Of a stretch of 64,000 nt of DNA, positions 31,261 to 45,243 are shown in pieces. How positions within the stretch are numbered: position 1 is the stretch's first letter; every line of letters starts with the position of its first letter. The translations under genes and the position numbers were made by a program. Source of the DNA: Marinobacter adhaerens HP15 (GTDB lineage Bacteria; Pseudomonadota; Gammaproteobacteria; Pseudomonadales; Oleiphilaceae); assembly GCF_000166295.1 (NCBI RefSeq), contig NC_017506.1, forward strand, positions 4,357,912 through 4,421,911. Reading direction: 5' to 3'. The notes under the pieces are model-generated. The model saw only the letters and a list, made by a program, of their open reading frames with translations. It was not told the DNA's origin and did no database searches.

Positions 31261-32040
31261 ATGTCAGTTACGAAACCATATCGCCGGACATGCCGCCAGT
31301 TTGTAGATGGCAGCTATGCGGAAGGTGGACGTTGGCAGTACCTTCTTCATAAAAAGTTCGCCAACGAGCCGCAGCACTTTATCCGAGCGTTTTTGATGCT
31401 CCAAGATGATTTGGAAGAGCTCTTTACGTTCATTGAGCCTGCGGATCAAAACCTGAACGCCTACTCGCATCGAACCCAACAGCTACTGACAAGGTGCTGC
31501 ATTGAAATCGAAGCAAATTTGACAGCAATTTTGCTAGAGAATAACTATCCGAAAACTAGTAGTGACCTAACCATGAAGGATTACAAGTTGGTCGAGTTTT
31601 CACACCGGTTATCTCATTATCGGGTTCGAATACCAGGATGGCGCGGCACACAGGGAACAAGAATGCCGTTTTCGCCGTGGGGTGGATCTACTCAAGATCC
31701 TTTGCCTTGGTATCAGGCCTATAATCAAGCCAAGCATGACCGGCACGCTCACTTTCACCTGGCGACTTTTGATGTGTTATTGGATGCCATATGTGGACTA
31801 GCGGCACTTCTGGCTGCTCAGTTCCATCAAGAAGACTATTCACCACAAGAGAAAACACTTGGTGTCGGGGCTAGCTACAGTTACGACACCGATGATGGAA
31901 TGTCGACGAGCATTGGGGGCTTCTTCAGAATCGAATTTCCAACAAATTATCCCTTTAGCGAGCGCTACGATTTTGATTGGGAAGCGCTTCGACAGTTGCC
32001 TGATCCGTTTGATGAATTCGATCACGCTGCTTATGCCTAA
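31261..32040 (+). CDS. cassette protein 1, unknown, HEPN-like C-terminal helix pair
   Basis: 259 residues, no signal peptide. I do not recognise the family. The middle part is helical and includes NQAKHDRHAHFHLATFDVLL, whose R/H-rich helix followed by a hydrophobic helix (AICGLAALLAAQF) recalls HEPN-type proteins, many of which act in toxin-antitoxin or phage defence. An RNxxxH catalytic motif is absent. The C-terminal 60 residues are acidic and aromatic. First gene after the array's left core site, so it would be the best expressed cassette in a functional integron. Its stop lies within the start of an attC site. Confidence 0.75.
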   Translation: MSVTKPYRRTCRQFVDGSYAEGGRWQYLLHKKFANEPQHFIRAFLMLQDDLEELFTFIEPADQNLNAYSHRTQQLLTRCCIEIEANLTAILLENNYPKTSSDLTMKDYKLVEFSHRLSHYRVRIPGWRGTQGTRMPFSPWGGSTQDPLPWYQAYNQAKHDRHAHFHLATFDVLLDAICGLAALLAAQFHQEDYSPQEKTLGVGASYSYDTDDGMSTSIGGFFRIEFPTNYPFSERYDFDWEALRQLPDPFDEFDHAAYA

Positions 32041-32118
32041 CCAGTGCAGGCACGGCGACGCCCATTACATTGCGCCTTCGGCTCCATTTCACGGGCGCGC
32101 ATGCTGCAAGCGTTATAT
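32036..32118 (+). repeat. attC site 1
   Basis: Starts CTAACCAGTGCAGGCA and ends TGCTGCAAGCGTTATAT. The two ends are complementary with an unpaired base, as in integron attC recombination sites. About 83 bp. Confidence 0.8.
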
Positions 32119-32134
32119 GGATGGGGAGAAATGA

Positions 32135-32722
32135 GTGTCTAGGCAGGTTGCGCTAATTGCACGCTGGAATGAGAAAGCTACCGATTTAGGGACCCGGCTG
32201 CTGGCGCTTTCTTGTTTTGATAACAACCGCTTCGTCAATGGTCGGAATGCCATTGAGGACGATGTGATGTCCTTCGAGTCATTGAGCCTTGAGATCACTA
32301 CCGAAGTTATCGATTTACTCCACGAGTATTGCTTTATTTTGCGCAAACTAATCGAAAGAGCGGATTGTGTGGCTCAAGCCAAAAAACTTTATCCGCACCA
32401 AGGCGAAGAATCTATCAGTATCAATAAAGACGGTCCTGATGAGCGAAAGGTAATGCTTTGCCAAAAGGATTTGTGGTGGATTTTGGGGAGGGTTATTCAC
32501 TCTCAGTCTGTAGTGGTGCTGGGGGGAGACACCAATCTGCTTCGGGTATACGGTGATGGCAAAACTCGAAGCTACAGCGATGGCTATTGTTATGTTTCGG
32601 TCGAGTCGGATTTTGATAACGAGGTACAGCACATTCTCCACATTCCTTCGCTGGTCCACGTTTTTTCATTCTCGGCCCTAGCTATCGAGATAAAGGAAGT
32701 GGTACGCGAGAACACCATATAA
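32135..32722 (+). CDS. cassette protein 2, unknown
   Basis: 195 residues from a GTG at 32135 with GGGGAGAAA upstream. No known domain is recognised. It is a soluble, mixed alpha/beta-looking protein; a segment ALSCFDNNRFVNGRNAIEDD and a later VVLGGDTNLLRVYGDGKTRSYSDGYCYVSVE are its most distinctive parts. Single gene of the second cassette, ending in attC 2. GC content is lower than in the core genome. Confidence 0.65.
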   Translation: MSRQVALIARWNEKATDLGTRLLALSCFDNNRFVNGRNAIEDDVMSFESLSLEITTEVIDLLHEYCFILRKLIERADCVAQAKKLYPHQGEESISINKDGPDERKVMLCQKDLWWILGRVIHSQSVVVLGGDTNLLRVYGDGKTRSYSDGYCYVSVESDFDNEVQHILHIPSLVHVFSFSALAIEIKEVVRENTI

Positions 32723-32786
32723 CCAAGGGCTGCAGCCGACTGGTTTTCTGCTGCTCCAAACCGGCGGCGGAGCCCGGGCGTTAGAT
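32717..32786 (+). repeat. attC site 2
   Basis: Starts ATAACCAAGGGCTGC and ends GAGCCCGGGCGTTAGAT, whose GTTAGAT fits GTTRRRY. About 70 bp, ends directly before the next cassette gene. Confidence 0.8.
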
Positions 32787-32809
32787 TGCCTTCCAGCAGG
32801 ATGCTCTAT

Positions 32810-33427
32810 ATGAAAACACTTGCAAAGCTATGGCGAGAAGTACGGTCAGCGAGTTCAGTTGCACTTGCAGAACTGGAATCCGCACCTGGACCTAAACCAA
32901 CTTCTCAGATGTGCGAATTTCTAATCCTTGGGGAGGATCAACGTATTGAGCTACACATGGGGGTCGACCCAATCGCACTGATGAGGAGTGTTTGGATGAC
33001 TTGCGTCCACCGAAGACGTCAAGGCGGATCGACAGTTGCCATGCAGTTGGTGCGTACATTGACACAGAGGTATGAGCGAACGATATGGCGCAAAATCAGC
33101 GAAATTGTCCTAGCAGTGCGTCTCACATATACGTTTGATCGGAAGGACATTGCCCGTATTTATCTATGGGTGGCCTACTACGGCTGGAACATGCACGGAT
33201 TCCAGCAGGCTTTCGAGGGGATCTCGAAGGCCACTGGCAACGACTCAAAAATCGGCGCGGCGAATCTTGTGGCGCGCCTTAAATACCCACAACCACGTCA
33301 TCTAGATGAACGGCAACTCGGTCGAATTAGCCGCAGAGTTCACCATCTTCTCGCGCTTGATTCGGGCTCTACAAAACGCGGTACTTTCTCAGGCATTGCA
33401 AATCATGGAACCATTTCGAATTCCTGA
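32810..33427 (+). CDS. soluble GT51-type peptidoglycan transglycosylase-like protein
   Basis: 205 residues from the ATG at 32810. All transglycosylase landmarks of penicillin-binding proteins are visible in order: GEDQRIELHMGVD (catalytic Glu at residue 42), RQGGSTVAMQLVRTL (71-85), WRKISEIVLAVRLT (second Glu at 98) and IARIYLWVAYYGWNMHGFQQA. No signal peptide or membrane anchor is present and there is no transpeptidase domain, so unlike MtgA or PBPs it appears cytoplasmic, away from polymerisable lipid II. Its last 23 bases overlap the nucleotidyltransferase gene in another frame, and no attC separates the two, so they form one two-gene cassette. Function unknown. Confidence 0.75.
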   Translation: MKTLAKLWREVRSASSVALAELESAPGPKPTSQMCEFLILGEDQRIELHMGVDPIALMRSVWMTCVHRRRQGGSTVAMQLVRTLTQRYERTIWRKISEIVLAVRLTYTFDRKDIARIYLWVAYYGWNMHGFQQAFEGISKATGNDSKIGAANLVARLKYPQPRHLDERQLGRISRRVHHLLALDSGSTKRGTFSGIANHGTISNS

Positions 33428-34073
33428 TCCGCTTCGTAATCTTAGAGGCGCACATCCAGAAGCGGAGGCGGTGCTCGCAGCCGCACGTAGTGGTGGCAAT
33501 AGCTCATGTGTCGCATTGGCGCGCCTATGGCTGACGGAAGGAATCCCATATGCGTTCGCTGAATGCCCGGCGGTTTTCGAGGTGCTGCGCGGATGGTTGG
33601 CGACCCGGCTTGACGTCGATCCTAAAGAAATCTCGCTTACGGGAAGCGCCAGAATCGGCAGCTCGATCTCTCCTGGTAAACAAGGAATTAAGTTCTCGCC
33701 AAGTTCCGATCTTGACTTATTTGTCGTGTCAGAATCACTGTTCGGAAAGTTACGGGATGAATTCAACCAATGGACTTACGAGTTCGATGGTGGGATCGTC
33801 AAAGCTGCGAATTCTCGGGAGCACGCTTTCTGGAAGGACAATGCCGCGCGCGGAATCGGGCTTTTGGCCCGAGGATTTATTGATCAAAAAATGATCCCAA
33901 ATCTGTCCAATTATCCGACTGTAAAGAGCATTAGCCAGGGTATGTGGCTGTTGACAGAAAAACTCCGGCTAACTGACGGGGCGCCAACGCCAACGCACGC
34001 ATCCATCCGCTGCTATAGATCTTGGAACCATGCAATTCAGCAGATCTCACTGAACCTAGGAAGCATAGCGTGA
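33405..34073 (+). CDS. nucleotidyltransferase-fold protein in two-gene cassette
   Basis: 222 residues from the ATG at 33405. The polymerase-beta-type motif is complete: LTGSARIGS (Gly80-Ser81) then SDLDLFVV with Asp102 and Asp104 about 20 residues later. This suggests transfer of a nucleotide to a protein, RNA, small molecule or another nucleotide (CD-NTases of CBASS and MNT antitoxins share the fold). The C-terminal half is helical and unlike any family I can name. The frame is open further upstream, but the start inside the transglycosylase gene gives a compact protein and likely translational coupling. Confidence 0.75.
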   Translation: MEPFRIPDPLRNLRGAHPEAEAVLAAARSGGNSSCVALARLWLTEGIPYAFAECPAVFEVLRGWLATRLDVDPKEISLTGSARIGSSISPGKQGIKFSPSSDLDLFVVSESLFGKLRDEFNQWTYEFDGGIVKAANSREHAFWKDNAARGIGLLARGFIDQKMIPNLSNYPTVKSISQGMWLLTEKLRLTDGAPTPTHASIRCYRSWNHAIQQISLNLGSIA

Positions 34074-34091
34074 GTCGTTGGAGGAACTGGC

Positions 34092-34147
34092 ATCTAACAA
34101 GTGAATCCAGGTGACGACTACGGCGCACCTGATTCAAGCATTAGCTC
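34092..34147 (+). repeat. attC site 3
   Basis: Starts TCTAACAAGTGAATCCAGGT and ends CACCTGATTCAAGCATTAG; the arms CCAGGTG-like/CACCTG and GAATC/GATTC pair. Short form, about 56 bp, with ATTAGCT in place of the GTTRRRY core. Confidence 0.7.
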
Positions 34148-34165
34148 TAAAAAATTAGGATAGAG

Positions 34166-35023
34166 ATGGACTGGAAAGAATACGAAAAGGAGATTTTCGA
34201 CCATTTTAAGGGCCAATACCCGACCGCCGAGATTAGCTTGGATGCACGGAAAACCGGACTGTATTCAAAGGCTGAGCGCCAAATCGACATTTTGATCGAG
34301 CAATACGTAGCTGGAAACCGGATCACCATCGCTATTGACGGGAAATATCTGAATAAGAAGGTCGATGTCAAAGCAGTCGAAAGCTATATCGGCATGCTTG
34401 AGGACATTGGAGCCCACAAAGGCTTGCTAGTCTCGAAAGAGGGATTTTCGGAGGCAGCATACAACAGAGCACATTTCGGGCCCACCGAAATTGAATTGGA
34501 CATCCTTAACTTAGAAGAACTTAGACACTTCCAATCGTATGGTGCGATTCCATATGCTGGAGACTGTGGTGCTTTAATTCCTGCTCCATTTGGCTGGGTT
34601 GTCGATATTCAAACCACACCTGCCTGGCTGGCGACGGTCTATCAGCAAGGCCGCACACTAGATGACGCCATGAAAGATGGTGAATTCATGTATGTTCAGT
34701 TCTGGAATCGCCGACAGGGCGGCCATGAGCTAGGGGACTTGCTAAACCTTCAAAAGGAAAATCTGCTGAAAGTTGATCCGGAATGCGTGATCGAATTTCT
34801 ACCAACGATTAAACGAAAAGACGCCGAAACGAAGCTTCGGGTTGCTCATGTAAGTCAATATCCATCGCCAGAATACACGGGATTTGTACAGTTTACGGAT
34901 TTTATTTTCTTCTGTGTCTTGTTCTCTCCAGAAAATAGGTCAAAAAGCAACATCCGGAAATTAGAAAACATCATGGAAGCGGTGAGACCTATTAAAATTG
35001 AACAACATAAAGCTAACCAGTAG
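34166..35023 (+). CDS. Mrr-like restriction endonuclease-fold protein
   Basis: 285 residues. Residues 1-100 fit the Mrr_cat/PD-(D/E)xK fold: YEKEIFDHF, AERQIDILIEQ (catalytic Asp), ITIAIDGKYLNKKVD (the usual ECK reads DGK), SYIGMLEDIGAHKGLLVSKEGFSEAA. The C-terminal 170 residues are unfamiliar. Proteins of this type cleave modified or invading DNA or act as nuclease effectors. It is a single-gene cassette and its stop codon lies inside attC 4. Nuclease activity is plausible because Asp and Lys are retained. Confidence 0.8.
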   Translation: MDWKEYEKEIFDHFKGQYPTAEISLDARKTGLYSKAERQIDILIEQYVAGNRITIAIDGKYLNKKVDVKAVESYIGMLEDIGAHKGLLVSKEGFSEAAYNRAHFGPTEIELDILNLEELRHFQSYGAIPYAGDCGALIPAPFGWVVDIQTTPAWLATVYQQGRTLDDAMKDGEFMYVQFWNRRQGGHELGDLLNLQKENLLKVDPECVIEFLPTIKRKDAETKLRVAHVSQYPSPEYTGFVQFTDFIFFCVLFSPENRSKSNIRKLENIMEAVRPIKIEQHKANQ

Positions 35024-35088
35024 CGCAAGCTGACCGCTTTTCCGGCGCAGTAGCGCCTCCAAATCGGCCGCTTCGCATGGCGTTATGT
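35013..35088 (+). repeat. attC site 4
   Basis: Starts CTAACCAGTAGCGCAAGC and ends CGCTTCGCATGGCGTTATGT. About 76 bp with an internal palindrome GGCGCAGTAGCGCC. The preceding gene's TAG is part of the site. Confidence 0.75.
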
Positions 35089-35115
35089 GGTTTGGGCCTC
35101 AGAAAAGGGAGTTTT

Positions 35116-35535
35116 ATGAACGTTTTTAAGCACGGCTTGGTTGCTTGTTTTTTAATCGCTCTCGCCGGGTGCCAATCACCCATGAGTGACATGATGAACA
35201 ATAACTTTGTGGCTATCACGCCTGAGCCAGTGCCTGAAGGTCTTGCGGGTTCATGGACAGGTAATATGGGTCCTTACCTTGTCACTATGAAATGGCAGTC
35301 CGATGGGCATGGTTTGTTCTGCTATTCCTACGGCACCGCTGACGTCCTACAGAAATTAAAATTTTCCGGGGGCAAGATACAGATTCAGGACGGCACCAAG
35401 CTGATACTGAAGGAGCAGAATCCTGAATCCATTACGGTCTATGCTCCCTATGCTGCCGGCAAAGACACGGTCCTCCTCACCGATCCGGACTATAAAAATG
35501 CCTCGGGCTTCTGTGCCAAGGCGGTAAACACATAA
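35116..35535 (+). CDS. cassette lipoprotein
   Basis: 139 residues from the ATG at 35116, with GGGAG upstream; a longer frame exists but lacks a signal. The signal peptide ends in the lipobox LAGC (FLIALAGCQSP), so the mature protein starts with a lipidated cysteine. The residue after it is Gln, not Asp, which favours outer-membrane sorting. The rest (VPEGLAGSWTGNMGPYLVTMKW, LFCYSYGTADVLQKLKF) suggests a small beta-rich fold. Similar lipoproteins of unknown function occur in integron cassettes of other gammaproteobacteria; I cannot give a role. Confidence 0.8.
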   Translation: MNVFKHGLVACFLIALAGCQSPMSDMMNNNFVAITPEPVPEGLAGSWTGNMGPYLVTMKWQSDGHGLFCYSYGTADVLQKLKFSGGKIQIQDGTKLILKEQNPESITVYAPYAAGKDTVLLTDPDYKNASGFCAKAVNT

Positions 35536-35595
35536 CCAGTCGCACCAGGACACAGTCTGTGGCCGCTGGACGCCCATGACTGGTCAGCGTCATGT
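35531..35595 (+). repeat. attC site 5
   Basis: Starts ATAACCAGTCGCACCAGG and ends CATGACTGGTCAGCGTCATGT; CCAGTC/GACTGG arms pair. About 65 bp; the right core reads GTCATGT. Confidence 0.7.
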
Positions 35596-35607
35596 TTTTC
35601 TATAAAT

Positions 35608-36357
35608 TTGACTCAATTTCAGCTAACCGTGCTAGGAAAAGCCTCAAAAACCAGAGGCTACGGGGGCTATGCTGCTGCATCCTGTAGGAGGCACCTAGAA
35701 AGAGCATGGGAGCTCAGGGAGAGGATGCCCGAGGTTTCGGTATTTTTGGCAATTACTGCGGAAGAGGAAGCGGCCACGGCTATTTTTCATGCTCTCAGAA
35801 AACGAAAGTATGATCACGCGGATAAACTCAAGGGTTGGGATCATAGATACAAAGCAGGTGTTTACCCCTTTCTTAGGCTAATTGGGGACGTCCTCAGTCC
35901 TCCAGAGGGCTCTCTGCCTCTTACACTCTATTTCGACGAAGAGGATAAGGCCAAAGCCGATATTCTTAGAATTAGAATGCCAATTAGTGTTAAGGATGGG
36001 CTGCAATTCTATTTGATTCCTGAGCCACCTTTAGGTCTGGTTTCGACAGGCCCAGATGGAAAAGTCAGGGATTACGCCAAAGAAGTCAGAAGCGTTGCCT
36101 CCGAAAAGGGTATTGAGTCTATTTATAAATATATAAAGGGATTGGCGAATGAAAGGAATAAAATGCTTTACGCCACGGACTCTTCGCTCCCAAAAGTTGA
36201 AGATGCAAGCGCGGCATATAAGCGACATTCCGGTGCAGCACTATTGAACTTAATCATATACCTTCTTATTGAGCCGCATAAGAAACAGAGCCTTCCGCAA
36301 GAGGCTCTTGATGCATATCTGAGAATTCTTAACAGGATCGAAGAGAACGAAACATAA
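35608..36357 (+). CDS. cassette protein, AbiV/HEPN-like
   Basis: 249 residues if the TTG at 35608 is used; a GTG at 35629 is an alternative. The N-terminal part GYAAASCRRHLERAWELRERMPEVSVFLAITAEEEAATAIFHAL (split helices, residues 19-62) resembles the helix pair of AbiV abortive-infection proteins and HEPN domains. Near residue 187 ANERNKMLYA looks like an RNxxxH nuclease motif with Tyr in place of His. The likely role is in phage defence or stress, but this rests on weak similarity. Last gene of the array; its stop is in attC 6. Confidence 0.65.
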   Translation: MTQFQLTVLGKASKTRGYGGYAAASCRRHLERAWELRERMPEVSVFLAITAEEEAATAIFHALRKRKYDHADKLKGWDHRYKAGVYPFLRLIGDVLSPPEGSLPLTLYFDEEDKAKADILRIRMPISVKDGLQFYLIPEPPLGLVSTGPDGKVRDYAKEVRSVASEKGIESIYKYIKGLANERNKMLYATDSSLPKVEDASAAYKRHSGAALLNLIIYLLIEPHKKQSLPQEALDAYLRILNRIEENET

Positions 36358-36400
36358 CCAGGCAATGCACGCGACGAGCGGGTGCATTGCGGCGTTGACC
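36353..36400 (+). repeat. attC site 6
   Basis: Starts ATAACCAGGCAATGCAC and ends GTGCATTGCGGCGTTGACC; GCAATGCAC and GTGCATTGC are perfect complements. Very short, about 48 bp, last site of the continuous array. Confidence 0.75.
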
Positions 36401-36409
36401 GCCCATCCT

Positions 36410-36637: not shown

Positions 36638-36785
36638 GGGTGCTCTCAACCTTCGTGTGTCTCAGGATCAGTTGCACCTTCATCAGAATCCTCGTGTGCA
36701 GGTAACTCAGTAAAGCTTTCATGCGACGCACTGTGTGCGTACCATTCTTGCCCAAGCCATTCACAAAATTTCGGACGCGCTAAGG

Positions 36786-39488
36786 TCAGAATTCGGAAAA
36801 CTGCTCAAGAAGACCGGGGTTGGTTGTGTGCCGACGGCCCTCAGCGATGTCATCTGCTGGATCCTGATGTAGTGCGACCTTCACCTTCACGCGCTGCAGA
36901 AGGAAGCTGCTCCGGTATTTTTCGTTTACGCCGATTGCCCCCGTGACGGAGTCGTTAACGAGATCAAGAGCTTCCTGGAACTTACTCAGCTCAAGTTTCA
37001 CCTGCGACAAATTATGAGCCAACCAGATCCAGCCGCTCTTGTCTTCGATTGCCTCAAGGATAGCCTCTGCCTCCTCGTAGCGGCCAAGTTTATAAAGCGA
37101 CTCTCCCCATTTGCGTTTCTGATAGGGGTTGGGGGCCTTCAGAGTCTCGAACGCTTCTAGAGCGCGGTTCAGGTAAGTGGGGTGGTCATCGACGCTTGCT
37201 GCGAGCAGCATGATCTCTGCGTAGCTGCCGCGGCTCTGGTCATCGTCCAGCATCAACGGTGTAGGTTCAGGCAGACGCGCCAGTACATTCTGGACCCGCT
37301 CCGGCGCATGCCAAACCAGCGCGCGGACGAAGCTCGCGACAGAGTGATAGCCTTGCGGTATGCCGATCGCAGCACTGTACAGCGCTTCCGACAGAAATAA
37401 CTCTTCATGCTGTTCGATGAGTTCGCCAGCCCAAGTTTGACGCGCGCCATTGAGTGCATCGCCTAGTGCCATCAGCAGTGAGGGAGACACGCTGCCGTTG
37501 TCCTGTTTCGTAGCGATGATTTCTGATGCATAACGCTGTGCCGTCTCATAGCACTGATGCCTGCGGCTGCAAGATCGCACCAGTTGAAGTTTGGCTTCAT
37601 TCAGGGAATAACTGGCGACCACCTCTTGGAACAAGTGCTCGGCTTCGGAATGCTTCCCCAAGCTACGGAGTGTCTTTGCATGATGGTACTTGATTTCTGC
37701 GGCTTGACGGGCATCGAGGTCAACCATGGCTGCAAGGTCGTCATAGGCTTGCACGATCGTCCCTAGCCATTTTATCGCAGCCTCTTCCCCTGATATATGC
37801 CGGAAATAGCGCTCCTTAGCTTCGATTGACTCGAGAACTACCAGGATCGCGACCTCGTTTTTAGCCGCGCTCAGCGACCTGAGCCGATTTGCATCTTCCA
37901 GTGGGTTGGGCAGCAATTGGTTCTGAATGGCGCTGCCCATCCAGACCATCGACAATGCGTAGAGAAAGGCCGGACGCCGATCACCTTTCTCGACATTTCT
38001 GGCAATCTTGTCCTTCAGCTGCGATGCGATCAGCTGCAGGCCATGTCCATGCCCACGGATTTGCTGGAGAATGAACTCATCGAGCTTACTATCGATTTGT
38101 CTCGCCTTCTCGTCGGTTAGCCAATTCAACGACTTCAGCGCCGTGAAGACGATATCGTGGATTCGGATTGACGCTTCACTTTCAGGCGCGGTCAGCCCGT
38201 GACGCTCGAACGCTCTCAAGCGTAGCGGTCCAACAACGAACTTGAAGAACGCGCGATCGCAGTGGCTCTGGCCCGCCCATTGGAACAAACACAGCTCTTC
38301 CTCTAGTGCCGGTTTCAACCGTCCTAGAATACGGTCAGCGAGCCTTGCGCCGCCAACCGGCAGTTTGGCTACGTTGACGCAGTCCTCGGCAAGATCGCTC
38401 CACGAAACGCCCTCGTGCGCGGCGGCATTAAGCATCACTAGGCTAAGAGGATGGCCGCCGACTGCGCGCCAGATAGTCTGGAACGCCTTTTTGGACGGCT
38501 GGGTTTTTAGCCCTTTGCCGAGCAGTTCGCGAGCCAGCGTCTCCTCCATGGTAGGCATAGCGAATGCTCCAGGTGAGGGTGTTTGCCGTGTGATCAGAAT
38601 CCGAGAGTTCGGCCCACACAGTGCGGCTAGTTGGTCGATCGCGAGACTCGAGCTGGCATTGTCTATAACTAGGAATGTGCGGTTTCTGCGCAGCAGGGCG
38701 CTGACATTACGCTCAGCACCGCCGCGCTGAACCGGGACCGACGAGAGTCGCTCGACACCGTCGATGTCGCGACCGCTGACCCAAAACCTGTATTCGAAAT
38801 AGCATTCGTTGCGCAGTAGACACGCGGCTGCGGCTTGCGACTTCCCAATGCCGCCAATGCCGCCGATCTCAACACACGCCGTTTTTTCGAGCCTCCGATC
38901 AAGTTCAGTGTCGACTGCGCTATTTGGTACGTAAAGAGCGCTTATTGGCGGCGCGCGCAACGAGGCAGGGTGGTCATCTCGAATATCGGCCAGAACTGGC
39001 AGATGCTGGGCAAGGTCGTCGATTGCGTCGTCCCGCAGCATCAGCGTATCGATGATGGCCTCAGCGATCGACCGGCTATCCATGAGATGGAGGTGTCTCC
39101 CATTCATCCGTGTCTGCTGTAATGCTGTGTTGACCATCGCTTCGATTACGCCGGTTTGCGCACGCTGGGAGCTCAGAAGATAGATGTCCTCGGCGCGCGG
39201 CGCTAGGGATAGGGTGTGATCGAGATCCCCCCAAGGCTTGGTCATCGCACCGGAGAAGTATCCCTGCACGATCGAAGCCTCGACGACCAGGCTCCCATCT
39301 TCCGACACGGCATCTAGCGCACCACCGACTGGGCTGCCGCCGACCGACGACCCTCGATGTACGAGCTTCACATCGCGCAGATACTCAATAAACACGACCC
39401 CGAACCGCTCGAAGATCGAGCCCGGCGCCAAGATGCCAAGCGAGTCAATCACTCGCTGGATAAGCAGATTACGGGTCTGCGGGTTCAT
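36786..39488 (-). CDS. STAND/NB-ARC ATPase with nuclease-like N-terminus and TPR repeats
   Basis: 900 residues. Residues 1-165 resemble a PD-(D/E)xK-type effector (Glu27, Asp59 in GGALDAV, Glu70 in LVVEAS, then YFSG...DLDHTL and IYLLSSQ), though the lysine of ExK is not seen. Residues 205-480 are the NTPase: Walker A GGIGGIGKS (209-217), Walker B FLVIDNA (272-278), RILITRQ sensor and the NB-ARC-type GGHPLSL. The remainder is helical repeats of TPR type (HHAKTLRSLGKHSEAEHLF, YKLGRYEEAEAILEAIED). This is the architecture of antiviral STAND sensors (Avs and relatives), where the repeats detect a phage protein and oligomerisation activates the effector. It lies 65 bp downstream of the kinase gene on the same strand. 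Confidence 0.8.
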   Translation of the reverse strand: MNPQTRNLLIQRVIDSLGILAPGSIFERFGVVFIEYLRDVKLVHRGSSVGGSPVGGALDAVSEDGSLVVEASIVQGYFSGAMTKPWGDLDHTLSLAPRAEDIYLLSSQRAQTGVIEAMVNTALQQTRMNGRHLHLMDSRSIAEAIIDTLMLRDDAIDDLAQHLPVLADIRDDHPASLRAPPISALYVPNSAVDTELDRRLEKTACVEIGGIGGIGKSQAAAACLLRNECYFEYRFWVSGRDIDGVERLSSVPVQRGGAERNVSALLRRNRTFLVIDNASSSLAIDQLAALCGPNSRILITRQTPSPGAFAMPTMEETLARELLGKGLKTQPSKKAFQTIWRAVGGHPLSLVMLNAAAHEGVSWSDLAEDCVNVAKLPVGGARLADRILGRLKPALEEELCLFQWAGQSHCDRAFFKFVVGPLRLRAFERHGLTAPESEASIRIHDIVFTALKSLNWLTDEKARQIDSKLDEFILQQIRGHGHGLQLIASQLKDKIARNVEKGDRRPAFLYALSMVWMGSAIQNQLLPNPLEDANRLRSLSAAKNEVAILVVLESIEAKERYFRHISGEEAAIKWLGTIVQAYDDLAAMVDLDARQAAEIKYHHAKTLRSLGKHSEAEHLFQEVVASYSLNEAKLQLVRSCSRRHQCYETAQRYASEIIATKQDNGSVSPSLLMALGDALNGARQTWAGELIEQHEELFLSEALYSAAIGIPQGYHSVASFVRALVWHAPERVQNVLARLPEPTPLMLDDDQSRGSYAEIMLLAASVDDHPTYLNRALEAFETLKAPNPYQKRKWGESLYKLGRYEEAEAILEAIEDKSGWIWLAHNLSQVKLELSKFQEALDLVNDSVTGAIGVNEKYRSSFLLQRVKVKVALHQDPADDIAEGRRHTTNPGLLEQFSEF

Positions 39489-39553
39489 GGAAAGCTCCGG
39501 GTTTCAGATCTATCGCGATGGGCGACGGTCGCTAAGTGTGTTGCCGGAGGTTG

Positions 39554-40165
39554 TCATAGCAAAGGTTCGACTAAGCGCCAGATGTCTCGCGCCACCCCAT
39601 CCGGTGACTGATTTGCGTCGATGACATGGCAGCGTTCCGGCTCCTGGTGTGCCACCGCGATGAGAGCTTCGCGGATGACTGCGAAATCCCGCGCCGCTTC
39701 CGCCGGGTCAAGAACGCCGTCGCGGCGCTGCTCCCGCCGGCCATGAGCTACGGCAAGGGGAAGGTCTAGGATAATCGTAAGATCTGGGAGTGTGGGGCCC
39801 ACGACAATGTCGCGGGTCGACCGGAACAGCAGGTGGAGATCAGCATCGGACACCGCGACTTGAAGAGCGTAAGTCGAGTCGATGAAGCGATCAGAGATGA
39901 CCCACTGGCCACTAGCTAATGCTGGCCGGATAACACTGCGCACATGATCAAATCGGGCAGCGCTTACCAGCAAGAGCTGCTCTGTCGGAGCGAGTGGTCG
40001 GTCAGAGTGCGTTAGAATCGCACGGACCTCTGCCCCCAAATGGCCTCCATCCGGTTCCTTTGTCTGTAGTACCGATTGGCCGATATCTCTAAGATGCTCA
40101 ACAAGTAGTTTAACTTGCTCGGTCTTCCCGCTACCGTCAATGCCCTCGATACTAATAAATGGCAT
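39554..40165 (-). CDS. thymidylate kinase-family nucleotide kinase
   Basis: 203 residues. P-loop GIDGSGKT at residues 8-15, a TKEPDGG version of the TREPGGT loop, the DRFIDSTYALQ motif (92-102) that binds the nucleoside and an arginine-rich lid RREQRRDG. These make it a full-length dTMP-kinase homologue. Housekeeping tmk is normally beside holB and pabC, not here, so this is a dedicated paralogue, divergent from a radical-SAM gene and upstream of a STAND gene. It may phosphorylate an unusual nucleoside monophosphate made by the radical-SAM enzyme. That link is inferred. Confidence 0.85.
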   Translation of the reverse strand: MPFISIEGIDGSGKTEQVKLLVEHLRDIGQSVLQTKEPDGGHLGAEVRAILTHSDRPLAPTEQLLLVSAARFDHVRSVIRPALASGQWVISDRFIDSTYALQVAVSDADLHLLFRSTRDIVVGPTLPDLTIILDLPLAVAHGRREQRRDGVLDPAEAARDFAVIREALIAVAHQEPERCHVIDANQSPDGVARDIWRLVEPLL

Positions 40166-40208
40166 GCAAATCCTTCATTAATAAAAATCAAACACGCAAT
40201 GGTGTTTA

Positions 40209-41669
40209 ATGAATCGCTCGAATACAGTTACATTCGTATCTGCCGGTATGTTATCGCCCAAGAAGCGCGATCATATACTTGCGCGCCGGCAACTCTATCT
40301 TAATTACGGTGCATTATCGCTGGCAACGACCCTAGATACCATGGGAACCTCCACCTTGTTGGTGCACGGCGAGCACCGCGAACCCGCCGATGTCCTAGAC
40401 ATGTTGCTGGATAAAGGAGTATTTCCGTCTCGGTTGCCGATAATGCTATCCATCCCCAGCTTCTACGCTCTACCATGGGCGCAGACTTTTTGCAGGCTAG
40501 TGCGCGACATTGATCCGGACGCTAGGGTCATTGTCGGTGGGCGTTGGGTAGTCGGCCCGGATCCTGACTGGTTGCACGCGAAACTACCAGAGGCTGATTT
40601 GTTGGTTCCCGGTCTGGCAGAACCGCTAATAGCGAGCCTGCTCACGAACGCGCCGGACCTACGCCTCCTGCCTGCCTCGAAGCCAGATGTCGTCCTAAAC
40701 CATACCTTGGTATCAGGCTTCGAGCGCTATCAACCGAGCATTGAGGCATCACGTGGTTGTGGTATGGGGTGCTCGTTCTGCGAAGAGCGGGATATCCCTC
40801 TAGAGAAGTTGGGTGAACCGCAGCAGTTTGCTAGAGCGCTTGCGGCAGTTTCTAGTCAGTATGGGGACAGCGAGATTCGGCCCTATTTTCAATCATCGAT
40901 GTTCGTCCCCAATGAGAAATGGGCCACCGGTCTAGCGAAAGCATTCCAAGCCGACGGCCTCAATGTGGCGTGGCGGACGGAGAGCCGCGTCGATGTCCTT
41001 ACGCCTGAAACGATTGCCTGTCTTGCCGGGGCAGGATTGAAGGTGCTCGATCTGGGGCTCGAGACGGCCTCCCCGACGCAGATTCTAAACATGCGCAAAT
41101 CCCGCCATCCGGACCGCTACCTTGAGCGAGCGTCTATTTTGCTTAAGGCGTGCAGCGATCACGGTATCGCCGCCAAGGTCAATGTCTTGCTTTACGCCGG
41201 GGAAACGACCAAGACTCTTGAGGAAACGCGTTCGTTTCTCGATGATCACAAGAGTTCTATTGCCGGAGTTTCGGTTGGCCCAGTCGTGGCGTATGGCCCA
41301 CCGAAGACCGCGAATATTCTTCTGAATGAGTGGTCGAGGAGCGGTGCTACGCCGGTCGACCCAAGTAGCGCGAACGACAGCGGGATATCAATGATTCATC
41401 TCAGTCATGATTTTGACGCAAAATCGGCTGAGGCCGCGAGCTTGCATTTGTCTAGGCGCTACATGGATGCAAAGGCATATTTTTACCTGAAGAGCTTCTC
41501 ATATTATCCGCGCGATTACGCGCGCGCAGACTTCGACCGTGACGTTGCTGCAAGCGATACATCGCAGTTGCCGTTTCGCACAGCCGAAGGAATAACAGGG
41601 GCAGACACTCGAGAAAAAGCCACACACAGGGGGCAGGCCTCCCTTGCAGTGACTGAGCAAGTTCGTTAA
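40209..41669 (+). CDS. radical-SAM enzyme with B12-binding-like N-terminus
   Basis: 486 residues. The 4Fe-4S/SAM motif is SRGCGMGCSFCEE (Cys184, Cys188, Cys191). N-terminal residues 1-160 look like the cobalamin-binding Rossmann domain (SIPSFYALPWAQTF, ARVIVGGRWVV, ADLLVPGLAEPL) but no DxHxxG cobalt-ligand motif is visible, so B12 may not be bound. The TIM-barrel continues with WRTESRVDVLTPE, LKVLDLGLETASP and AAKVNVLLYAGET. The C-terminal 100 residues are unique. It is transcribed away from the kinase with only 43 bp between the start codons, so the two promoters overlap. The substrate is unknown; prokaryotic viperins, also radical-SAM enzymes beside nucleotide kinases, offer a functional analogy, not homology. 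Confidence 0.85.
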   Translation: MNRSNTVTFVSAGMLSPKKRDHILARRQLYLNYGALSLATTLDTMGTSTLLVHGEHREPADVLDMLLDKGVFPSRLPIMLSIPSFYALPWAQTFCRLVRDIDPDARVIVGGRWVVGPDPDWLHAKLPEADLLVPGLAEPLIASLLTNAPDLRLLPASKPDVVLNHTLVSGFERYQPSIEASRGCGMGCSFCEERDIPLEKLGEPQQFARALAAVSSQYGDSEIRPYFQSSMFVPNEKWATGLAKAFQADGLNVAWRTESRVDVLTPETIACLAGAGLKVLDLGLETASPTQILNMRKSRHPDRYLERASILLKACSDHGIAAKVNVLLYAGETTKTLEETRSFLDDHKSSIAGVSVGPVVAYGPPKTANILLNEWSRSGATPVDPSSANDSGISMIHLSHDFDAKSAEAASLHLSRRYMDAKAYFYLKSFSYYPRDYARADFDRDVAASDTSQLPFRTAEGITGADTREKATHRGQASLAVTEQVR

Positions 41670-42060
41670 ACAGATATGTAAGAATATAGAACACCTAAAA
41701 GATTCCTTGCCCCCCCTTCGCTTTTAGGGCTCTCTGGCGGAATGAGTGGAATCATCCCCAATTCCATTCTCCAGCGGAATGGAGGCTAATTATAAATGTC
41801 AGCCTGGCAGTGGCGGCTACCAGCGGGGCCAGAGAAACGAGGCACAGGTACTCGGAAAAGGCCCAGGGACAGGCACTGACGGGAAGCGGTGGGGCCGTCA
41901 GCCGAAAATTTGGTCTGGGTCTGGTAGCGTGAAGCATAAGTTCATTTGTCGCATCCTGCGGGGTGTTTTCGATCAAAGTGAATCCACAAATCCGGGTGCC
42001 GAGATGTGGAGCAGCCGGTCAAGTTGGTAGCCAGAGATCGAAGTATGCTGTTGTCTCGCA
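41670..42060. other. 391-bp gap without convincing gene
   Basis: Small open frames on both strands have no ribosome site and no recognisable protein. The stretch lies between the radical-SAM gene and an isolated attC site and may be the remains of a decayed cassette. Confidence 0.4.
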
Positions 42061-42141
42061 CTAACCAGGCCAGTCATACGACGGCTTTTCCATTCCGCCT
42101 TCGGCTCCCTTCCAAAGCCGCGTATGCTGAGCGACGTTAAT
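42061..42141 (+). repeat. isolated attC site 7
   Basis: Starts CTAACCAGGCCAGTCATACG and ends CGTATGCTGAGCGACGTTAATC; the inner arms CATACG/CGTATG and the GACGGC.../...GCCG stretches pair. It has the build of the attC sites at 32-36 kb but stands 5.7 kb from the last of them. Confidence 0.65.
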
Positions 42142-42151
42142 CGTCCTACCT

Positions 42152-44074: not shown

Positions 44075-45243
44075 ATGTATCGAATCTCAGAGCTGGCTGC
44101 ACAGCTCAATCTATCCCGATCAACTTTGTTGTATTACGAAAAAAAGGATTGATCACTGGCAAGCGTCAGTCGAACGGATATCGATTTTACGGGGAAAAGG
44201 ACCTCCAGCGCCTTCGACTGTTGCAACAGCTACAAGCCGGGGGGCTGAGCCTTCAGGAGTGCAAGGACTGCCTCGATGGCAAGCTCGATAGAGGCATGCT
44301 GCAACGCCGAATGGTGCAGTTGAATGCTGAGATCGAAGCAAAGCAGAGAGCCAGTCGCCTGCTTTCTGCATTGCTCGGTAAAGGCTCGTTGCGTGCCTGG
44401 CACCAGGTAACTGACCGGGTCGCACCCGACGCCTACCTAGATTGGATTAAACAGCAAGGCTTCAGTGAGCGGCAAGCCCTGCATTTGAAATGGTTATCTA
44501 AAGATATGAATCAACATGACCAATACATGGCCGACTTTATGGCCGTTTTCCAGGGCCTTGACCGTTGGGGACCAGGTTCTGAAGAAGATACTGTTAAAGC
44601 TCTGGCCCGAGTGCCTATCGTACCAACTCAAGTTGTTGATATCGGCTGTGGCAAGGGCCTTGCCACTATCATACTTGCCGAAAAGACAAAGGCTCAGGTC
44701 GTGGCCGTGGACAATGAAGCAAGCGCAATAGAGGCGTTGAAACAACGGCTTGTTGAGCAAGGCCTTCAAGACCGAGTGAGAACCGAATGCGCAAGTATGA
44801 CGGATTTGCCATTCCAGACTGGCAGCTTCGATCTCGCTTGGGCAGAAGCGTCGGCCTACGTTATGGGCTTTGAGAAAGCGCTTACAACCTGGAAAAAACT
44901 CTTGAAGCCAAAAGGCTGCATCGTGGTGAATGATTTGGTTTGGCTGACAGACACGCCAAGTCAGACCGCCGTGGACTTTTGGCATCAAGAATATCCTGAC
45001 ATGCAATCAGTTACTTTACGTGAGCAACAAATCCGGCGGGCGGGATATACGGTAATTGATCATTTTTCCCTGAGCCAGCAGGCATGGGCAAATTGTTATG
45101 AACCTTTGCGTTCACGCCTCAATGAATTGAAGCCTCAGATGGCCGAGTCGACGGCACTGGCCGACATTGATCGAGAAATTGGAATTATTGACCAGTATCT
45201 CGGTGAGTTTGGTTATGAGATGTTCATCTTGCAGGTCGATTAA
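44075..45243 (+). CDS. MerR-type regulator fused to SAM methyltransferase, with -1 frameshift site
   Basis: The ATG at 44075 (GGGGG upstream) opens MYRISELAAQLNLSRSTLLYYEKK, the MerR helix-turn-helix, then meets a TGA at 44150. A -1 shift at A-AAA-AAG (44140-44146) restores the expected YYEKKGLITGKRQSNGYRF and the frame runs to 45243. The downstream part has a coiled region (VQLNAEIEAKQRASRLL), then a class I methyltransferase domain: VVDIGCGKGLATIILAEK, VVAVDNEASAIE, LKPKGCIVVNDLVW. Whole length would be about 390 residues. MerR-methyltransferase fusions of this kind exist in other bacteria. The shift could be programmed, or the gene may have lost one A from an 8-A run. Confidence 0.8.

Follow-up and report, generated by a model that had tools for sequence, protein, structure and literature searches.

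A mobile radical-SAM and thymidylate-kinase gene pair with exchangeable STAND and HD partners, a candidate anti-phage system in Marinobacter adhaerens HP15

Why should a bacterium keep an additional thymidylate kinase head to head with a radical-SAM enzyme, and a large STAND protein behind it? This arrangement is found in the 4.65-Mb genome of Marinobacter adhaerens HP15, within a stretch of 64 kb of contig NC_017506.1 (the window), where three intact open reading frames (ORFs) encode a STAND protein (STAND), a dTMP-kinase homologue (KIN) and a radical-SAM enzyme (RSAM), with gaps of 65 bp between STAND and KIN and 43 bp between the divergent KIN and RSAM (Table 1). The trio had been picked out from the sequence as a candidate defence or nucleotide-modification system, and its gene content and positions were confirmed here. 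We hold with moderate confidence that RSAM and KIN form the core of a mobile anti-phage system, in which RSAM would alter a thymidine-type nucleotide and KIN would charge the product, with STAND and HD proteins serving as exchangeable modules.

KIN matches the thymidylate kinase profiles PF02223 (2.4e-39) and TIGR00041 (136.5 bits against a cut-off of 83.25), and is one of two Tmk-family genes in the HP15 genome, the other being located at C1:2326646. The number of Tmk-family genes was determined in 26 of the 27 genomes behind the related loci described below. All 23 searched genomes with KIN had two or three matches; of the three searched genomes without KIN, two had a single Tmk-family gene and the third a second, weak one. 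In a tree of 29 KIN sequences (from the window, 24 genomes and four plasmids) and 21 housekeeping Tmks, KIN formed one clade, separated from the housekeeping enzymes at 100/99 support, with a program warning of long branches that meet. The second genomic gene and the separate clade rule out that KIN is the strain's only housekeeping Tmk, a possibility raised with the original prediction; KIN is a second and divergent Tmk.

All 29 KIN sequences have kept the P-loop residues G11, G13 and K14, the D92-R93 of the DR(F/Y) motif, R71 and Gln102. The Tyr of the AYQ motif, present in 21 of 21 housekeeping Tmks, is replaced in 28 of 29 KIN sequences, by Phe (22), Leu (5) or Ile (1). The Gly after AYQ, likewise found in all 21 housekeeping enzymes, is Val in 28 of the 29, and equally many have Lys for the Arg of TREPG. 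Because the Tyr of AYQ sits near the sugar in known Tmks, its replacement suggests that the KIN pocket could accommodate a changed sugar or base. KIN is best described as a dTMP-kinase paralogue with a putatively altered nucleoside pocket.

Related loci were collected by scanning a collection of genomes from 84,980 species with two exact-peptide patterns, an approach that recovers close relatives only. A total of 59 stretches matched, 30 of which encoded a relative, corresponding to 27 distinct loci. Another four loci were added from plasmids, opened out of five records with RSAM identity of at least 60% and coverage above 80%, giving 31 loci. Three further relatives were kept outside this set: L044 from Nostoc (27% identity), L046 (38%) and L088 (50%, with a stop codon). 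A divergent KIN adjoins RSAM in 24 of the 27 genome loci (L029, L032 and L035 are without it) and in all four opened plasmid loci, from Burkholderia glumae, Pseudomonas, Sphingomonas and Rhizobium. The total is 28 of 31 loci, or 28 of 33 if L046 and L088, neither of which has KIN, are added. A second B. glumae plasmid, outside the 31, also carries the radical-SAM gene, the tmk and a match to STAND. The count of 28/31 rules out that RSAM and KIN are chance neighbours, and the association extends far beyond HP15, which removes the concern that it might be particular to this strain.

The partners of the pair are more variable. STAND follows KIN in 13 of the 27 genome loci and in three of the four plasmids (16/31); L014 does not allow a judgement, as its contig stops about 0.1 kb past KIN, and the L011 assembly splits STAND into three matches. 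An HD phosphohydrolase, belonging to one of two families, is found in 13 of the 27 genome loci and in one of the four plasmids (14/31). The SAMHD1-like family occurs in ten loci (L019, L022-L026, L028, L030, L031 and L034), although with just 36% identity and on the opposite strand in L028 and cut near the contig end in L023, and matches the HD-domain protein 2o6i at 3.2e-66 and SAMHD1 at 1.4e-26. The dGTPase-like family occurs in four (L020, L021, L032 and plasmid L043) and matches the PADLOC dGTPase model at 2e-111 and 1.7e-61. STAND and HD are both present in L020, L022 and L023, and at least one of them in 27 of the 31 loci, the remaining ones being L014, L029, L033 and L035. Mapped on an RSAM tree of 33 sequences with L014 set aside, the STAND label changes four times, with at least three of the changes forced by well-supported branches; if L014 is counted as lacking STAND, there are five changes, of which four are forced.

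Thus, based on the locus counts and the repeated changes in the tree, we conclude that RSAM and KIN are the core, and that STAND and HD are plug-ins. The conserved unit is therefore the RSAM/KIN pair and not the trio foreseen in the original prediction; STAND is present in 16/31 loci and often has an HD phosphohydrolase in its place. Besides RSAM, KIN, STAND and the two HD families, three further groups of proteins are shared by at least three of the 27 loci: an OLD/RecF-type ATPase (L020, L027 and L034; assigned by start sequence), an ABC-ATPase (L011, L029 and L035), and blocks common to the related loci L012, L013 and L036. In Pseudomonas aeruginosa, relatives of RSAM (88%) were found on 124 contigs and of STAND (86%) on 152 contigs, the longest contig of both sets having a length of 6,885,412.

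RSAM contains the CxxxCxxC motif and the radical-SAM core (PF04055, 1.5e-8). A B12-binding-type domain at its N-terminus is recognized by a fold match that covers residues 4-469; the Pfam domain PF02310 was not called on RSAM itself and is precomputed on some of its relatives. The nearest folds are those of AprD4, MgmA and OxsB, with 14-16% identity in the alignments with AprD4 and OxsB. OxsB is an oxetanocin A enzyme with a nucleotide substrate and AprD4 is a diol dehydratase; we know of no kinase or STAND partner for either. Viperins match the radical-SAM core, and no pVip profile matched RSAM at E<=0.1; a distant relative, P0305, gave a weak pVip match (9.7e-4). By profile, RSAM was rejected as a viperin, and the likeness to viperin that had been suggested earlier is replaced by a likeness to AprD4, MgmA and OxsB.

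STAND is a TPR protein with an NB-ARC module that is recognized by structure; the NTPase and the TPR region are clear. The proposed N-terminal nuclease is read only from the secondary structure and the residues D59, E70 and K84; migrated lysines do occur in PD-(D/E)XK folds. The top Foldseek matches include Avs3 and Avs4, and none of the PADLOC families, Avs profiles included, matched at E<=0.1. Like Avs, the protein is a STAND NTPase with C-terminal TPRs and a probable effector at the N-terminus. It differs in its size (900 aa, as compared to 1534-2028 for the Avs chains matched), in having no PADLOC match and in being encoded with RSAM and KIN.

The genomic surroundings of the unit were compared with control stretches from the same contigs for 19 of the 27 genome loci, using naive longest-ORF calls of at least 150 aa (113 of 199 eligible in the flanks, 113 of 283 in the controls). 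At E<=1e-20, 142 PADLOC models were matched in the flanks, as compared to 34 in the controls, where the models listed (25 of 34) were mostly GajB-type matches of one UvrD-type helicase. Single loci point in the same direction: L012 has Lamassu LmuA/LmuB genes 0.9 kb downstream, L030 has a gene for a type I restriction subunit near RSAM, TcmP/Gp37-Gp68 genes (by annotation) adjoin the unit in B. glumae, and a QatC-matching gene is located near it in Rhizobium WL3. Of the ten neighbour proteins tested along with those of L012 and L030, four had no match (two from L046 and one each from L026 and L031). Many of the loci thus have defence genes nearby, in support of the original prediction.

More distant relatives show which other genes accompany such enzymes. 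On the Nostoc plasmid pNLP1 (L044, 341-14844), the RSAM relative is located beside a P-loop kinase related to the kinase-like part of the anti-phage dCTP deaminase, and the two are flanked by a DpdE-like helicase, a DrmMI-like methyltransferase and a DruE-like helicase, suggesting a possible hybrid defence operon. The SAMHD1-like HD protein of L025 shows 60-65% identity to HD proteins on plasmids of rhizobia and Labrenzia/Roseibium, and all of the 12 plasmids listed, out of 42 records with an HD match, also carry a shorter radical-SAM gene. In the three plasmids that were opened (L089-L091) the gene order is radical SAM (about 377 aa, with CxxxCxxC), DEDDh-type exonuclease, P-loop kinase and HD, a sister operon for which we know of no name. 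Its neighbours are Shedu and QueC-like genes in L089, a DNA methylase in L090 and a CBASS-like pair in L091. Further plasmid loci of this operon type are L095 and L096. A Streptomyces form has an annotated thymidylate synthase and a nucleoside diphosphate (NDP) kinase ahead of the radical SAM, exonuclease and kinase, and the Streptomyces and Gluconobacter operons have an aldo/keto reductase in place of HD.

The radical-SAM protein of the Sinorhizobium meliloti sister operon has no significant BLASTP similarity to RSAM and gave no informative match in the PDB, and the three sister-operon radical-SAM proteins tested matched none of the PADLOC families, for which reason they were also rejected as viperins. 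A connection between the two kinds of operon is provided by L033, which has RSAM and KIN and, next to RSAM, a gene for a DEDDh exonuclease that shares 38% identity with the enzyme of the S. meliloti sister operon. Because kinases, an NDP kinase, a thymidylate synthase, dNTPase-type enzymes and an exonuclease surround these radical-SAM enzymes, the gene content is what would be expected of a pathway to an unusual dNTP with protection against it. The modified-nucleotide product of the original prediction agrees with these partner genes, notably the dNTPase-type HD proteins and the DEDDh exonuclease.

RSAM is rare among the relatives of HP15. At E<=1e-40 it was found in 2 of 100 genomes of the genus (its own and one other), 2 of 293 of the order and 1 of 398 of the phylum, and at E<=1e-60 in 2 of 369 of the class, with HP15 included in each count and the best few candidates per genome scored in the order, class and phylum searches. 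The second member is L088 in the order and L046 in the class, both without partners. One clade of the RSAM tree, in turn, unites members from Marinobacter, Pseudomonas, Burkholderia, Duganella, Acidovorax and Sphingomonas. Among named organisms, the unit closest to that of HP15 is in Marinobacter sp. AC-23, where the similarity to the window stops at both ends of the unit and only attC-like stretches match outside it. The 3' end of the unit falls inside the TAACCAG of an attC-like site. In AC-23, the unit begins right behind another attC-like site and is followed by a different sequence, and it does not share about 330 bp located in the window between the attC-like site at 36354 and position 36736. 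The unit is not set apart by its GC content (0.558 vs 0.557 for the window).

When four of the attC-like sites were folded, two clearly beat the shuffles (Table 1) and two did not (z -0.72 and -0.35). The sites were read by eye against the attC consensus and by hairpin folding, with no return from a home-made attC scan, and a search of the genome for an integron integrase gave 11 partial matches, none over the TIGR02249 cut-off. Transport of the unit as a cassette is likely but unproven. A phage-borne origin was rejected, with no match in the phage set and with 20 stretches of viral contigs that matched a peptide pattern, none encoding a relative.

Table 1. Features of the unit and its borders in the window (position 1 is the first letter of the window).
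Feature	Position	Strand	Description
STAND	36786..39488	-	900 aa; N-terminal restriction-endonuclease-like domain ~1-175 (unproven), NB-ARC NTPase ~180-456, TPR superhelix ~460-900
KIN	39554..40165	-	Second dTMP-kinase homologue, 203 aa, intact catalytic motifs; PF02223 2.4e-39, TIGR00041 over cut-off
Divergent intergenic stretch, KIN start to RSAM start	40166..40208		43 bp
RSAM	40209..41669	+	Radical-SAM enzyme, 486 aa, Cys184/188/191; N-terminal B12-binding-type domain (by fold)
Mobile unit	36736..42068		Stretch in common with Marinobacter sp. AC-23, 96.4%
attC-like site, 3' edge of unit	42062..42143	+	Bottom strand forms a long hairpin, z -2.73; motif read by eye
attC-like site upstream of unit	36354..36402	+	Hairpin z -2.62; motif read by eye

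Other features of the window were also recorded. A run of small genes at 31261-36402 is split by attC-like sites at 32040, 32719 and 36354 and encodes an Mrr-type endonuclease (34166-35023; PF04471, 7.2e-8), a protein with a weak likeness to AbiV (35608-36357; 0.0064) and one that looks like a nucleotidyltransferase and has no Pfam match (33306-34073). The run is possibly a cassette array that carries defence genes and lacks an integrase. A 28-nt repeat (about AATGTCCGCTTTGCGACC) occurs in five copies in the window, at 36403, 42145, 45259, 46008 and 46670, and the copies at 36403 and 42145 are part of a longer repeat, of 69 nt, that is located at the attC-like sites. A MerR-type HTH fused to a SAM methyltransferase domain is encoded at 44149-45243 (PF13411, PF13649).

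The working model that we propose for the RSAM/KIN unit is as follows. RSAM would alter a thymidine-type (deoxy)nucleotide, most likely at the sugar or base of dTMP, KIN would phosphorylate the product, and a host NDP kinase would make the triphosphate. The altered dNTP might then poison phage DNA synthesis or serve as a ligand. STAND would be an Avs-like receptor and executor that fires on a phage cue or on a disturbance of the altered nucleotide, and the SAMHD1- or dGTPase-type HD protein, instead of or beside STAND, would shrink the competing dNTP pools or destroy excess product. The partner genes fit the earlier proposal of a modified-nucleotide product. The gene content with its conservation and modularity, the mobility of the unit, the divergence of the kinase, the predicted folds and the defence genes in the vicinity are observed; the substrate and product of RSAM, the phage resistance and the trigger are inferred. 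Relatives of STAND (31-42% identity) are found on three rhizobial plasmids (L092, L093 and L094) without RSAM or KIN within about 6 kb, which suggests a stand-alone Avs-like family. Recruitment of STAND as a module in the form of an Avs-type phage sensor fits this just as well as the putative sensing of nucleotides.

Several observations weigh against this model. Five of the 33 RSAM relatives (L029, L032, L035, L046 and L088; 38-56% identity) have no adjoining KIN, and L046 is located among cytochrome/P450 genes and L032 among signalling genes, for which reason the wider RSAM family may do something else. The kinase beside the Nostoc relative is of another kind than KIN. AprD4, the nearest fold, was solved with an aminoglycoside precursor, and MgmA acts on a protein. 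Since AprD4 works without cobalamin, the fold does not decide whether RSAM binds it, and neither cobalamin binding nor the substrate and product are readable from the sequence. The comparison of flanks and controls is a coarse measure that counts PADLOC models and not proteins: of the 25 flank models listed (out of 142), 22 are GajA models, each matched by at most four proteins, and the three LmuB proteins are encoded in three Pseudomonas blocks that are closely related. Finally, KIN matches the component PDC-M51B of a PADLOC candidate system (discussed below) at 4.8e-11, which is unspecific, as a housekeeping Tmk scores 1.8e-12.

Different explanations can be given for the same genes. RSAM and KIN could make a nucleotide second messenger that silences or activates STAND or HD, a signal rather than a poison and in the manner of nucleotide signals known elsewhere, which we regard as unlikely yet worth considering. 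The impression that STAND and HD are interchangeable outputs of one enzyme core would agree with such a signal, as would the Clover HD dGTPase, described as turned on by dTTP and off by p3diT (PMC12265719). However, the STAND relatives on the three rhizobial plasmids are as expected of a stand-alone phage sensor, and STAND and HD occur together in L020, L022 and L023. It is less probable still that the unit guards the nucleotide pool without new chemistry, with KIN and HD tuning or sensing dTMP/dTTP in the infected cell and RSAM modifying host or phage RNA or protein in an unrelated function. The full Tmk catalytic set retained in KIN and the many substrates served by B12-type radical-SAM enzymes are compatible with this, whereas the altered KIN pocket and the conservation of the closely spaced RSAM/KIN pair, while HD and STAND vary, argue against it.

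We consider it improbable that the genes represent a pathway to a nucleoside antibiotic or toxin on mobile DNA, similar to OxsB/OxsA, with defence genes around it only because islands happened to insert there: the clusters common to at least three of the 27 loci include no recurrent transporter immediately next to the core, and the STAND protein fits immunity. Very improbable is a role in DNA hypermodification, with a modified thymidine triphosphate as a self-mark of host DNA and the endonuclease-like domain of STAND attacking unmarked DNA. This would agree with the DpdE- and DrmMI-like genes around the Nostoc relative, but STAND, the only nuclease-like part of the unit, is missing from 15 of 31 loci (including the unjudged L014), and marking through the nucleotide pool would mark the phage DNA too. 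The anti-phage model with an altered thymidine nucleotide, charged by KIN, is preferred. Within this model, we tentatively suggest that the unit represents a viperin-independent route to antiviral nucleotides, in which a B12-fold radical-SAM enzyme would make a modified thymidine nucleotide, a dedicated Tmk paralogue would charge it and plug-in modules would provide the output. Such a route may mirror the animal set of viperin, CMPK2 and SAMHD1, with other radical-SAM and kinase families as its building blocks, and may have its place in a wider group together with the radical SAM-exonuclease-kinase-HD operons found on plasmids.

If the model is correct, bacteria would possess, in addition to viperin, a second family of enzymes that make antiviral nucleotides, one that probably acts on precursors of DNA and is equipped with swappable sensors. 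A new nucleotide analogue of natural origin could be found in the RSAM product, and the swap between STAND and HD would be a natural experiment on the coupling of a single nucleotide chemistry to different immune outputs. The analysis also draws attention to the sister operon on rhizobial, Labrenzia and Streptomyces plasmids.

A search of titles and abstract openings found no published description of the RSAM/KIN/STAND set, which is weak evidence of absence, as most subscription papers lay outside the search. A loose resemblance is shown by PDC-M51, a candidate in PADLOC-DB v2, which also joins a radical-SAM protein and a Tmk-like P-loop kinase, such that the novelty claimed in the original prediction has to be narrowed. 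In a comparison that covered components A and B, RSAM matched M51A weakly at 1.1e-4 and the RSAM proteins of L025 and L029 did not match at E<=0.01; exact identity with PDC-M51 is not supported, given the unspecific KIN match. The PDCs are unpublished candidates from guilt-by-embedding, with experimental validation described as pending for most of them (PMC12988326).

Among characterized systems, viperin (pVip) with a CMPK2-like kinase resembles the unit in that a radical-SAM enzyme adjoins a nucleotide kinase, as in 28/31 of our loci, and in the proposed antiviral nucleotide; 15% of the bacterial viperin genes are stated to adjoin a CMPK2-like kinase (PMC11249213). SAMHD1, the dGTPase defence systems and Clover, whose dNTPase effector CloA is stated to answer to dTTP (PMC12265719), share the HD dNTPase-type partner with 14 of the 31 versions of the unit. 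They differ in that they act alone or with a nucleotidyltransferase, whereas HD is here accompanied by a radical-SAM enzyme and, in most cases, a Tmk-like kinase, and in that no HD gene is located beside the HP15 unit, where only a partial match (32-38%) was found elsewhere in the genome. Based on these comparisons, the unit would belong with the radical-SAM antiviral nucleotide systems, and there is a real chance that it represents a distinct kind.

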